This document shows, piece by piece, positions 7,334 through 35,247 of a DNA stretch of 64,000 bases (position 1 is the stretch's first letter; every line of letters starts with the position of its first letter). The position numbers were made by a program, and so were the translations under genes. The stretch comes from Methanobrevibacter sp. Lineage in GTDB: Archaea > Methanobacteriota > Methanobacteria > Methanobacteriales > Methanobacteriaceae. Location: NCBI GenBank assembly GCA_022775905.1, contig JALFJX010000009.1:1-64000 (forward strand). The letters are read 5' to 3'. Below the pieces are notes generated by a model. That model did no database searches. It had not been told where the DNA came from and saw nothing but the letters and a program-made list of their open reading frames with translations.

Positions 7334-7888
7334 TTAACCCCAATTATTATCTCCTAAAGTCTTTTTAAGTTTATTTCCCCAAGATTTTTCTTCCATATCT
7401 TTAACGGTTGAATCCAAATTACTTGAAACATCGGAAATAGAACTATTTAAAGCATTGATTTTATTATCCATAATATCCAATTCCAGTTTCATGAATCCCT
7501 TTTCAATGTCTTTATATGTTTGAGAATTGTCCTCATTAATCATTTCAATTCCATTTCCATCATTCAACATGTCCATCAATCTTAAAAATACATGCTCCTG
7601 GTGCTGTTTTTCATATTCTTTTATATCTGCAACACTGTAAATTTTGTCCAACAACATTTTTAAGACATTAATAAAGTCTTCCCTGTCTGAGTGGTCATTA
7701 ACATTATTTGGAAGAATATCCGTTTTAAGTAAAAACACTGAATCAATTTTTTCATCAGTTTTTAAAACTAAAGAGTATCCTTTCTGTTCAATATAAACTA
7801 ACGCAATAGATTTATTATCATAAATTTCAACTTCTACTTTAGCAAATTCTTTTGGAATAGATAGAAAATCTAAATTACGAACTAGCAT
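7334..7888 (-). CDS. Uncharacterised protein with C-terminal coiled coil
   Basis: I do not recognise this protein (184 aa from the chosen start). It has an N-terminal beta-rich part, a helical middle and a Ser/Asp/Asn-rich coiled-coil stretch near ALNSSISDVSSNLDSTVKDM, and ends in Trp-Gly. ATG 7888 is preferred over the upstream TTG because GGTG lies 5 nt before it. It is the first gene of the zinc-ribbon cluster and probably works with the two ribbon proteins downstream; nothing more can be said. Confidence 0.6.
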   Translation of the reverse strand: MLVRNLDFLSIPKEFAKVEVEIYDNKSIALVYIEQKGYSLVLKTDEKIDSVFLLKTDILPNNVNDHSDREDFINVLKMLLDKIYSVADIKEYEKQHQEHVFLRLMDMLNDGNGIEMINEDNSQTYKDIEKGFMKLELDIMDNKINALNSSISDVSSNLDSTVKDMEEKSWGNKLKKTLGDNNWG

Positions 7889-16706: not shown

Positions 16707-18395
16707 TTAAAAGTTAATATTTAACTCATCCATCATTTCATCAATCTTTTTATTTAATCTTTTGATATTTGAAGTGATTTCCTCTTTTTCATGAACCAAA
16801 TCTTTTAGTTGAATAAATTCTCCTTCAAATGTATCCACATATCTTGAAACAGATAAATTAAAATCATTATTTTCAATATCTGAAATAGATACAACATTAG
16901 AATATTTATCAATTATTTGATTGTTCTTATAAACATCAATTAATTTATTTATACTATCCTCAGACAATAACAAATTCCTTTTAAACATCCCTGGCAATGC
17001 ATTTGAAGATTTTTTTGTTTTAAAATTTTGTGATAAATCAACAAACAGTAAATTATCACTATTCCTATTTTTTCTAAATACACAGATAATTTCAGGCCTT
17101 GCAGATCTGCCCAATTCATCAGGAATACTAATTATAGTATCAAGGTAATTATGTTCAAGAGTTAAATATTTTCTTAATGTAGACAATGAATTCTTAAATA
17201 AAAAACTTTGAGGAATAGCAACAACCATTACTCCATCATTTTTAAGGTTATTTATTAAATTAATCAGGAATAAGTATTCACTGTCTTTGAGTGATTCATA
17301 TTCTCCATTAAATTCAATTTCAGAACCTAAATCCATGTCCATTTTTTCAAGTAAGCTTTCCAAAGCATCATTCAGTTGAGCATCATCAGCAAAAGACTTT
17401 TCACTCATCTTGAAGTTTGATGAAAGAACATTTTCAAGCTTTCTTCTTTTGCTTCTTTTAGAAAGTTCAATATTTTGAGTTTTATTGGATATTCTGGAGC
17501 TCCAACCTCCAATTTGAGGTAATTTTGATATAATTACATCATAGGAAGCACCATCAATATCAACAGAGTCAATTGCATTTCCAAATTCTAAAAATACTCC
17601 ATCCAAATCAAAATAGTTCATAAAAAGTCTGACCATACCAACACAGTAAGTTAATTTATCAAAACATTTTCCATATGATTTGCCGTAAGGAAATGAGAAT
17701 TTATCAGATAAATTAATTAAAGAAGATGCATCATTTAAAAATGGATTATATACATCCATAGGAGATGATTTTGTTGCACAGACCAATTCAGTTAAAATGG
17801 TATTGATATAATCTGGATCATGTTCAATACCCATATATCTTGATTGACAAATTTGATCAAAAACTTCAGTAAATGAGAACTCATCTTCAAATAGATCTAA
17901 TTTTGAGATTGAATAAATTAAATCTTTATAAAGAAGATTATGTTCATTATCAAATTCCAATTTCTTAAGATTTATTTCACTTTTAAATGATTCAAATAAA
18001 AAATTAAAATATTTTTCATAATTTGAATTTGGCATGAATTCAATATTATTAAAAAATGTCCTAACAAAAGAAGTCAGGAAAAACCTCTCAGGATATTCAT
18101 TATTAATTACTTCATCAATATATGCTTCAGGTTTATTGATATAATACCCAAACATATGAAATGCATCATTTCTAAATACTTCCTGATAGTACGGATCTCT
18201 GAACGCTTCATCGAGAGTAATTTCTTTATCTTCAACAACACTTAAAAAATAGTCTTTAAGTGAATCAGAACAGTATTTGTATAAAAATGTTAAAACTAAA
18301 AGATAATTGGCATCACTGGAGTATTCAGATTGTCTAAGATTAGTGCGAATATTCCTGAAAATTGTATAATTATGAGACTTTCTACGTTTAATCAT
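16707..18395 (-). CDS. HsdM-like protein with degenerate methyltransferase motifs
   Basis: The 562-aa protein has the architecture of a type I modification subunit. There is an N-terminal helical part (IRTNLRQSEYSSDANYLLV...YKYCSD), a Rossmann-like core, the usual late segment (DGVMVVAIPQSFLF, then DTIISIPDELGRS and ICVFRKN) and a C-terminal coiled coil. However, motif I, normally DPxCGSGG, reads VYNPFLNDASSL at 215-226, and motif IV, normally NPPF, reads DVIISKLPQIGG at 286-297. Both the SAM-binding glycines and the catalytic NPP are missing in a long intact frame, so it is probably a DNA-binding pseudoenzyme. It overlaps the HsdS-like gene by 8 nt. No HsdR is nearby. Confidence 0.75.
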   Translation of the reverse strand: MIKRRKSHNYTIFRNIRTNLRQSEYSSDANYLLVLTFLYKYCSDSLKDYFLSVVEDKEITLDEAFRDPYYQEVFRNDAFHMFGYYINKPEAYIDEVINNEYPERFFLTSFVRTFFNNIEFMPNSNYEKYFNFLFESFKSEINLKKLEFDNEHNLLYKDLIYSISKLDLFEDEFSFTEVFDQICQSRYMGIEHDPDYINTILTELVCATKSSPMDVYNPFLNDASSLINLSDKFSFPYGKSYGKCFDKLTYCVGMVRLFMNYFDLDGVFLEFGNAIDSVDIDGASYDVIISKLPQIGGWSSRISNKTQNIELSKRSKRRKLENVLSSNFKMSEKSFADDAQLNDALESLLEKMDMDLGSEIEFNGEYESLKDSEYLFLINLINNLKNDGVMVVAIPQSFLFKNSLSTLRKYLTLEHNYLDTIISIPDELGRSARPEIICVFRKNRNSDNLLFVDLSQNFKTKKSSNALPGMFKRNLLLSEDSINKLIDVYKNNQIIDKYSNVVSISDIENNDFNLSVSRYVDTFEGEFIQLKDLVHEKEEITSNIKRLNKKIDEMMDELNINF

Positions 18396-18954
18396 TATTT
18401 TCCCCCCAAAGTTTATTTAAAATGCCCTCTTTGAGGCGTCTATCATATTCAACAGCTTTCAAGTCTTCAGCGATTTTTTCATTAATTGTATTTAAAAGTT
18501 GACCATATTTTATCTGTGTTTCAAAATCAGGAACTTTAAGAACAATTTCTTTAATTTCTTTAATGGATATGTGAGGTATCCTTTCAGTACTTCCACTTTC
18601 ATGAAGTTGTTTTTTAACGTGAGCATTAGTTAACATATGAGCAATAAATGCAGAATCAAAACCCGGATTCAATCGTATAATAGCTATTCTATCACTTACC
18701 ACAAGTCCTTCCTGATTTAATTGGACTACATCAAATGGATATGGCATTTTCATTAGTACATCACCAGACTTTGAGAAAAATCTTTCTTTAATATTCTCTT
18801 TTAATTTGACTTTTTCAAAATCTGCAACAATTCCATCTCCTTTAATTGATCTTTGAACTATAACATTATTATATGATCCATTATCATCCAAATAACGCCT
18901 GTATGAAAGGCCAGAATAAATCTCTGCAATATCATTTAGTTTTACAGTTTGCAT
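18388..18954 (-). CDS. Half-size HsdS-like specificity subunit (single TRD)
   Basis: At 188 aa this is about half a normal HsdS. Residues 5-130 resemble one target-recognition domain (LNDIAEIYSGLSYRR at the start, SGDVLMKMPYP in the middle), followed by the conserved helix with HISIKEIKEIVLKVPD and a final coiled helix. A homodimer could recreate two recognition domains. ATG 18954 is chosen over the GTG 9 nt upstream, which is part of a GTGAG-like site. It is transcribed ahead of, and overlaps, the HsdM-like gene. Expected role: sequence-specific DNA binding with that partner. Confidence 0.75.
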   Translation of the reverse strand: MQTVKLNDIAEIYSGLSYRRYLDDNGSYNNVIVQRSIKGDGIVADFEKVKLKENIKERFFSKSGDVLMKMPYPFDVVQLNQEGLVVSDRIAIIRLNPGFDSAFIAHMLTNAHVKKQLHESGSTERIPHISIKEIKEIVLKVPDFETQIKYGQLLNTINEKIAEDLKAVEYDRRLKEGILNKLWGENND

Positions 18955-18996
18955 TTTTCTCACTAATAATAAATTTAGTTAATTTAATATAAAAAA

Positions 18997-19392
18997 TTAG
19001 GTTCCAAAGCACCTGCCCGGAACCATTGTTGAGCCAATACATTTGGCCCACATAGCAATATGATGGGGAACTTGGTGGTATTCTTCAAGATAAACAAAAT
19101 ATGTGAAGCGTTTCCACATCATATACATTGATTTGAAAAGGGAGAGTTGGCTGAAATAAGCATGTTTACGGTTATATGATTTTTGCCAGACCTGATACTC
19201 TTGAAGTCCGAACAAATGTTTAATTTCTTTTCTTAATGCATCCATTTGGTGATATTCGAATGCAATTGGAGGATTCGAAAGATTATAGAAGTCATGTTGA
19301 AACTTCCTAATCTTTCTGTTGAGAAGTTGCTCCCTTTTATAATATTCATTGTGTTTTTTTCTTGACCTTTTGTAGAATTTATATCTAGACAT
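18997..19392 (-). CDS. Small very basic protein of unknown function
   Basis: A 131-aa protein rich in Lys, Arg, Tyr, His and Trp, with a basic N-terminus (YKFYKRSRKKHNEYYKREQ) and a mostly helical prediction by eye. No family recognised. AGGAG upstream favours ATG 19392. It begins about 10 nt after the stop of the acidic gene upstream, so the two are an operon; the HsdS-like gene follows after 42 nt, a gap that contains a T6 run and a possible TATA element. Its charge suggests nucleic-acid binding, which is only an inference. Confidence 0.6.
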   Translation of the reverse strand: MSRYKFYKRSRKKHNEYYKREQLLNRKIRKFQHDFYNLSNPPIAFEYHQMDALRKEIKHLFGLQEYQVWQKSYNRKHAYFSQLSLFKSMYMMWKRFTYFVYLEEYHQVPHHIAMWAKCIGSTMVPGRCFGT

Positions 19393-19400
19393 TTCCACTC

Positions 19401-19754
19401 CTATTGATACAATGCACTTACATCATCAACAAGCTGTTCTTTAGGTGCTTCAGAAATATCTACTTTTTCAGCAGAAACCCCACCAATAACACCCACACTT
19501 TGAATGTTGTTCTTTAAAACGGCAGTAGAAATAAGGCCAGACCCTTGTGGAGATAAAACAAATAAATCAAGGAATGTATCATCTTCCCCGACTATGAACG
19601 CTGGTTCGATGGCTTCAGAAGAGTTGGTTTGAACTTTAATGAGAATATGTTTTGCTTCATTGTCCCCTTCGAGTCCAATTTCACGCCTAATATTTTCATC
19701 CAAGATTTTAACTTTTTCACTCCAGTTAACAGAGTTAGATTGGTAATCATTCAT
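19401..19754 (-). CDS. Small acidic protein of unknown function
   Basis: A 117-aa acidic protein without recognised domain. The middle (HILIKVQTNSSEAIEPAFIVG, then FLDLFVLSPQGSG) looks like alternating strands, the ends helical. ATG 19754 has GGTGAT directly upstream; the longer frame starting at 19781 is not favoured. It is the first gene of the run that leads through the basic protein to the HsdS/HsdM-like pair. An acidic gene followed by a basic one is reminiscent of antitoxin-toxin pairs, but no family match supports that. Confidence 0.6.
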   Translation of the reverse strand: MNDYQSNSVNWSEKVKILDENIRREIGLEGDNEAKHILIKVQTNSSEAIEPAFIVGEDDTFLDLFVLSPQGSGLISTAVLKNNIQSVGVIGGVSAEKVDISEAPKEQLVDDVSALYQ

Positions 19755-20052
19755 ATTATCACCTACTATTTTTAAATCCACTTTTTGTGGAAGAATTCAA
19801 CAATATTTTTACAAAATACAATTATATAAAATCTGCATTTTTACAATGAAGATTTAATTGTGTAATTATATCTTATATACAATAGTATATAAACTTAACT
19901 ATTTTAAACATCTTTTAGTAAAAAATACAATTACTAAGAATGTAATCACTAGTATATTTGTTATCATATATAAACTTTTTGCATATTATTAAAAAAGACA
20001 ATGAGGATATGCAAAATTACACAAAAATTTGAAAAAATAAAATAAAAAAAGT
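19755..20052. other. Non-coding gap with repeated TATA elements and inverted repeats
   Basis: No gene is seen. On the minus strand there are TATA-like boxes at about 19825-19835, 19884-19895 and 19976-19987, the last two sharing AAGTTTATATA, all reading toward the acidic-protein operon. Two inverted repeats are present: TTAGTAA (19915-19921)/TTACTAA (19931-19937), and TTTTGCATAT (19977-19986)/ATATGCAAAA (20007-20016). The upper end receives the mtrA terminator. Confidence 0.5.
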
Positions 20053-34957: not shown

Positions 34958-34963
34958 AATAAA

Positions 34964-35046
34964 CGCCGAGACTGGGATTTGAACCCAGGCGGAGAGACTC
35001 CACAGGATTTCAAGTCCTGCGCCTTACCAGACTAGACTATCTCGGC
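34964..35046 (-). tRNA. tRNA-Ser(UGA), copy 1
   Basis: The minus strand folds as a class II tRNA of 83 nt with acceptor GCCGAGA/TCTCGGC, a long variable arm, GGTTCAAATC T-arm and anticodon loop CTTGAAA (anticodon TGA). Discriminator is G and no CCA is encoded. Identical to the copy at 35128. Confidence 0.93.
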
Positions 35047-35127
35047 ATACATAAAAATAATATTTAAGAATAAAATAAAATAATTAGAATTAAAGTTAAA
35101 ACTTTTTTTAAAAATAGATATAATAAA

Positions 35128-35210
35128 CGCCGAGACTGGGATTTGAACCCAGGCGGAGAGACTCCACAGGATTTCAAGTCCTGCGCCTTACCAGACTAGA
35201 CTATCTCGGC
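35128..35210 (-). tRNA. tRNA-Ser(UGA), copy 2
   Basis: Same 83-nt sequence as the gene at 34964, same strand, anticodon TGA. The identity extends a few nucleotides into both flanks (AATAAA before, CATA after in plus-strand orientation), while the remaining 70-odd nt of spacer is unrelated. The pair is a tandem duplication. Confidence 0.93.
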
Positions 35211-35247
35211 ATATATGAAAAGGAATATTTAGAAAGAATCTAAATAT

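Follow-up and report, generated by a model that had tools for sequence, protein, structure and literature searches.

Type I restriction-modification systems are the textbook case of rapidly changing specificity. In their class of methylase, SAM is bound at motif I and catalysis takes place at motif IV (PMC3874165), while the C-terminal tail or helix of the M subunit docks on S and is required for assembly of PacII (PMC9613975). Half-size S subunits dimerize and thereby address symmetric bipartite sites, as established for EcoR124I-NT and AhdI (PMC2877798). No account of an inactive or orphan HsdM/HsdS family was found in the literature searched, which included half-HsdS and methanogen type I genes and had subscription papers outside its coverage.

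Gene order and the HsdS- and HsdM-like products

The window, which is the whole 64,000-nucleotide stretch of Methanobrevibacter DNA analysed here, carries four co-directional minus-strand genes between 19754 and 16707, and the gene calls agree with the gaps and overlaps that an earlier note on this DNA had read from the sequence. The acidic gene A runs from an ATG at 19754 to a stop at 19401 (117 aa; 20 D/E against 9 K/R), and the basic gene B from an ATG at 19392, or a GTG at 19398, to a stop at 18997 (131 aa; 24 K/R against 9 D/E). A 42-nt gap (18955..18996, minus strand) that begins with T6 and contains TTTTTTATATT separates B from the HsdS-like gene S (ATG 18954, stop 18388; 188 aa), which matches Pfam Methylase_S (PF01420, E 3.2e-07) and shares an 8-nt overlap with the HsdM-like gene M (ATG 18395, stop 16707; 562 aa). 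A full-length M is present in 40 of 67 genomes of the same genus, that of the window included; HsdR is absent from the locus, as first noted, and from every one of the 40 S-M loci. Elsewhere in the window a tandem pair of tRNA-Ser(TGA) genes lies 79 nt apart on the minus strand (34963-35211), and in the loci searched with Rfam the sole match was a tRNA.

S consists of one Methylase_S domain that has a single TRD, against two in a type I S subunit, and a single coiled-coil helix. At 188 aa it is half-size, as the earlier note described, but a truncation product is ruled out, since S falls in a distinct half-HsdS subfamily. Within the phylum set this subfamily is confined to Methanobacteriaceae, where it also occurs in complete systems, placed between HsdR and an HsdM that bears NPPF. 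In some complete type I loci (L137, L142, L144, L151, L152, L167, L173 and L174) an extra half-HsdS adjoins HsdM besides the full HsdS; its TRD is 67-77% identical within the genus and, being conserved, may serve a role other than target choice.

Pfam N6_Mtase matches M over residues 370-524 only. Structure prediction had been suggested for the S/M pair; a single-chain AF2 model of M, built from the 40-sequence alignment (pLDDT 84.4), shows an HsdM fold, with the HsdM 3lkd as the top Foldseek match (E 7.4e-20), followed by PacII M1/M2 and EcoR124I M, in alignments that span most of the length. The docking helix is likewise retained: it comprises residues 530-557 of the model (16725..16808, minus strand), and K537, L547, I551 and L558 are invariant. 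The active site fares differently, as the earlier note had recognized in calling the methyltransferase degenerate. The former motif I (17718..17747, minus strand) reads NPFLNDASSL where NPPF-bearing HsdMs have DPTCGSGSLL, and the former motif IV (17517..17528, minus strand) reads SKLP in place of (A)NPPF. In the 40 aligned proteins the place of DPxCGSG is taken by (N/D)PFxx(D/N)(G/A) or a similar sequence, and the NPP(F/Y/W) of type I methyltransferases is missing without exception and has given way to S-x-(I/L/F/V)-P or similar. None of the 40 retains the NPPF Asn or the motif I glycines, and the residue at the catalytic position varies (K, R, H or E). Judged by sequence and model, M is a pseudoenzyme that has kept the HsdM fold and lost the SAM and catalytic motifs.

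Conservation, inheritance and probable promoter of the pair

The pattern of conservation in the sampled genomes is the reverse of what the genus shows in its complete type I systems. Mean identity for the window-type pair is 68% for S (TRD 68.5%) and 46% for M, whereas in the complete systems it is 78% for HsdM, 36% for the full HsdS and 30% for the N-terminal TRD. With the TRD conserved and M diverged, selection appears to act on what S recognizes, with M as a scaffold, and of all the signs of a fixed target we give this inversion the most weight.

The S-M genes occupy one chromosomal position in all 40 genomes, with M always adjoining S and A, and with the stop of S and the start of M overlapping or abutting at nearly all loci. 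MtrA or its surroundings flank the pair on one side and a phosphoribosyltransferase/oxidoreductase/hemC block on the other, so that its neighbours are metabolic and housekeeping genes. Comparison of close pairs of genomes gives dN/dS values of 0.04-0.2 for the two genes, most of them ~0.1 or below (~0.04-0.12 in the majority of pairs for both genes, 0.04-0.11 for S), and no internal stop occurs in any of the 40 genomes. In a 7-gene tree all S-M genomes fall in a single clade (support 100/99), with one gain of the block and three or four losses of S-M inside it, the number depending on the poorly supported branching of G001 and G038. Of the genomes with nested losses, G001, G038 and G018 retain A, and G008 is without the entire block; G001 keeps a relic of B behind A although S-M is gone, which marks its loss as secondary. 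The fixed synteny and the 7-gene tree also rule out mobile or defence-island cargo for this locus, and phages and plasmids yielded ordinary HsdM only, at ~24% identity over the full length. S-M is under strong purifying selection and is inherited vertically.

The small genes accompany the pair unequally. The earlier note had treated the four genes as one set, which stands for A, S and M, found together in 40 of 40 S-M genomes, but not for B, present at 14 of the 40 loci, and A itself persists in four further genomes that have no S-M at the locus. With ~80% mean identity, A is better conserved than the other three proteins. Its AF2 model places a helix before five strands in an Sm-like small barrel (pLDDT 72.8 overall, 83-92 in the barrel), and the best Foldseek matches are mostly Sm, Hfq and Gemin proteins, at E values of 0.016 and up and none at E<=1e-3, so that an Sm-like fold is assigned to it tentatively. 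The M. ruminantium clade has distant homologues of A in the form of tandem gene pairs that stand apart from S-M (L101 7403-8143, L102 and L104). B gave no match of note in Pfam, NCBIfam or PADLOC and belongs to no known family. Where B is absent, a strongly conserved element lies 3' of A, between A and S (L042, L047 and L053-L065, for example L056 at ~7360-7420); it consists of a hairpin, TTAGTTTTGG-CTCACCA-CCAAAACTAA, followed by TGCTCATTCAACCACCA, its reading frame is not conserved, and no further copy turned up in the loci analysed.

Upstream of A lies the 21-bp element ATAGTTAAGTTTATATACTAT (19882..19902, minus strand), in which a TATA box sits within the imperfect palindrome AGT-N6-ACT. 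When up to 5 mismatches are allowed, 32 of the 40 S-M genomes carry it, but the four A-only genomes offer no match above chance level (Fisher p ~0.004, for a comparison group of four genomes that includes two close relatives and one genome outside the S-M clade). Its 18-mer core has an exact match only at this locus in the window's own genome. The promoter core TTTATATACTA occurs 33 times in that genome, one tRNA promoter included, and was not found elsewhere within 615 kb of loci. From these sequence features ATAGTTAAGTTTATATACTAT is read as a strong promoter that may double as an operator; a scan of intergenic DNA for bipartite palindromes returned this element and a hairpin, either of them a putative operator at most. 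The element precedes A yet tracks S-M, for which the simplest reading is a single unit A-(B)-S-M whose strong promoter would matter on account of S-M. Of the two arrangements that had been left open, one unit or two, the data lean to one promoter for all, as ATAGTTAAGTTTATATACTAT occurs only where S-M is. The T6 stretch with TTTTTTATATT before S is conserved among B-bearing genomes and could be a U-tract terminator or a TATA box.

Related pairs in Methanobacteriaceae

Other half-S/M pairs that lack HsdR are found elsewhere in the family. Those of the M. ruminantium clade occur in 13 genomes, with QIPF or EIPF and a polyprenyl-synthase/DHH neighbourhood; a further genus has KPPF, Methanosphaera has HPPF in six genomes and also SLPF, SVPY and NPTY, the genome G006 has VPPF, and others exist too. 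When a half-S is present and HsdR is missing from the surrounding 5 kb, NPP(F/Y/W) is absent from 66 of the 67 M proteins, and when HsdR is near, NPP(F/Y) is kept in 23 of 25, the two exceptions adjoining a separate complete system; HsdR was detected by two seed sequences and a motif rule, and both counts include many relatives and so bring out a pattern rather than a number of independent events. The AU test (p 0.41) does not reject one common origin for the inactive forms, the data fit one or several inactivations, and an A-to-S change before motif IV is common to most inactive lineages. As such, we do not claim several independent inactivations.

Three further arrangements were observed in the family. 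Methanosphaera has a conserved inactive HsdM with SHPPF (477-489 aa; L176-L181), mostly accompanied by a half-S and without HsdR, with nitroreductase and 3HCDH genes close by in at least one case. The window's genus includes two genomes that hold a second, highly divergent half-S/M pair (457-462 aa, SIPP; L182 and L183). Upstream of S in the M. ruminantium clade (L105-L116) lie ~0.8-1.5 kb that are poor in ORFs and have no Rfam match.

A broader reading, for which we judge the chances to fall somewhat below even, is that Methanobacteriaceae hold a family of non-catalytic complexes of half-S and pseudo-HsdM that act as fixed-target DNA-binding factors and would form an undescribed class of archaeal sequence-specific regulators, built from restriction machinery.

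Proposed role and comparison with known systems

The loss of methylase residues beside a well-preserved recognition part suggests conversion to a DNA-binding device rather than decay. The earlier proposal of a DNA-recognizing complex used for something other than methylation is in line with the loss of motifs in 40 genomes, the conserved TRD and the strong selection, with DNA binding itself a prediction. We therefore lean, with guarded confidence, towards S-M as a domesticated, non-methylating clamp on one fixed bipartite site, probably a regulator. Two half-S and two M subunits would assemble as an M2S2 clamp resembling a type I methyltransferase, which would bind one fixed bipartite palindromic site without methylation or cleavage and most likely act as a regulator or organise chromosomal DNA locally, a role to which the stable inheritance, the frozen TRD and the housekeeping neighbourhoods point. 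The pair would be expressed together with the acidic protein A from the strong promoter and, more speculatively, might regulate itself through the AGT-N6-ACT palindrome that encloses the TATA box. If true, a frozen recognition subunit and a disarmed methylase, recurring in a family of methanogens of the gut and rumen, would clearly exemplify the recruitment of restriction genes to another task, and the species that lost S-M, kept A and lost the promoter element offer natural contrasts for function.

Among the alternatives, it is unlikely that the dead M and the half-S join resident type I subunits and shift their specificity or damp restriction in a mixed complex of M1/M2 type. There is precedent for mixed M1M2S complexes (PMC9613975), a half-S from the subfamily of S stands beside NPPF-bearing HsdM in complete systems, and Pfam searches found two other type I systems in the window's own genome, on other contigs and each with its own M, S and R. 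However, these resident systems belong to other HsdM families, HsdM of the half-S-associated type is not seen in most of the 40 S-M genomes, and the patchy restriction systems show nothing like the stability of S-M.

Silencing, sensing and defence had been suggested as roles, and of these defence is the least supported, given vertical inheritance, a fixed locus and housekeeping neighbours. In this case S-M would be a non-cleaving recognizer or decoy, which might detect phage DNA that lacks modification or titrate DNA-mimic inhibitors of the Ocr/ArdA type, which bind type I MTases (PDB titles). Its derivation from restriction genes and a weak PADLOC similarity to mad2 and mad5 would accord with such a role, the latter being common to type I subunits generally, but an arms race would not predict a conserved TRD and a decoy needs none, and we consider defence distinctly improbable. 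The prospect that M continues to methylate DNA through a non-canonical active site is slimmer still: the fold is kept, and the pairs of the M. ruminantium clade hold the DPCCGS part of motif I, but none of the 40 has the NPPF Asn or the motif I glycines, and the residues that stand at the catalytic position vary. Fast divergence of M and absent catalytic motifs would also be expected of a decaying relic, a reading that dN/dS and 40 intact copies rule out barring recent decay in individual lineages.

The favoured reading, a non-methylating clamp, can be placed against the described systems. MADS offers a generic HsdM/HsdS similarity (mad2 and mad5, PADLOC E 1.7e-08 and 3.1e-09), but no further gene of this multi-gene system was recognized at the S-M locus, where the small genes have no PADLOC match, the neighbours are metabolic and housekeeping genes and the motifs of M are lost. 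With the type I methyltransferase HsdM2-HsdS of EcoKI and EcoR124I the pair shares a full-length HsdM fold, the docking helix, a Methylase_S TRD and overlapping S and M genes; it differs in having no NPPF, no SAM motif, a single conserved TRD and no HsdR, with the order S-M and no R. PacII M1M2S demonstrates that the M subunits of a type I enzyme can be functionally asymmetric, yet both of its M subunits keep NPPF/NPPY, whereas the S-M pair has one M gene, whose product is apparently inactive. The half-HsdS methyltransferases M.AhdI and the engineered M.EcoR124I-NT resemble it in their one-TRD S and in the dimer on a symmetric bipartite site that is expected here (PMC2877798), but they methylate, and M of the S-M pair is by its sequence a pseudoenzyme. 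The HsdR-halfS-HsdM-HsdS loci of Methanobacteriaceae have HsdR, a full HsdS and an intact NPPF, none of which the S-M pair has; they share with it the same half-S subfamily and the same S-M order, and are likely its ancestor.
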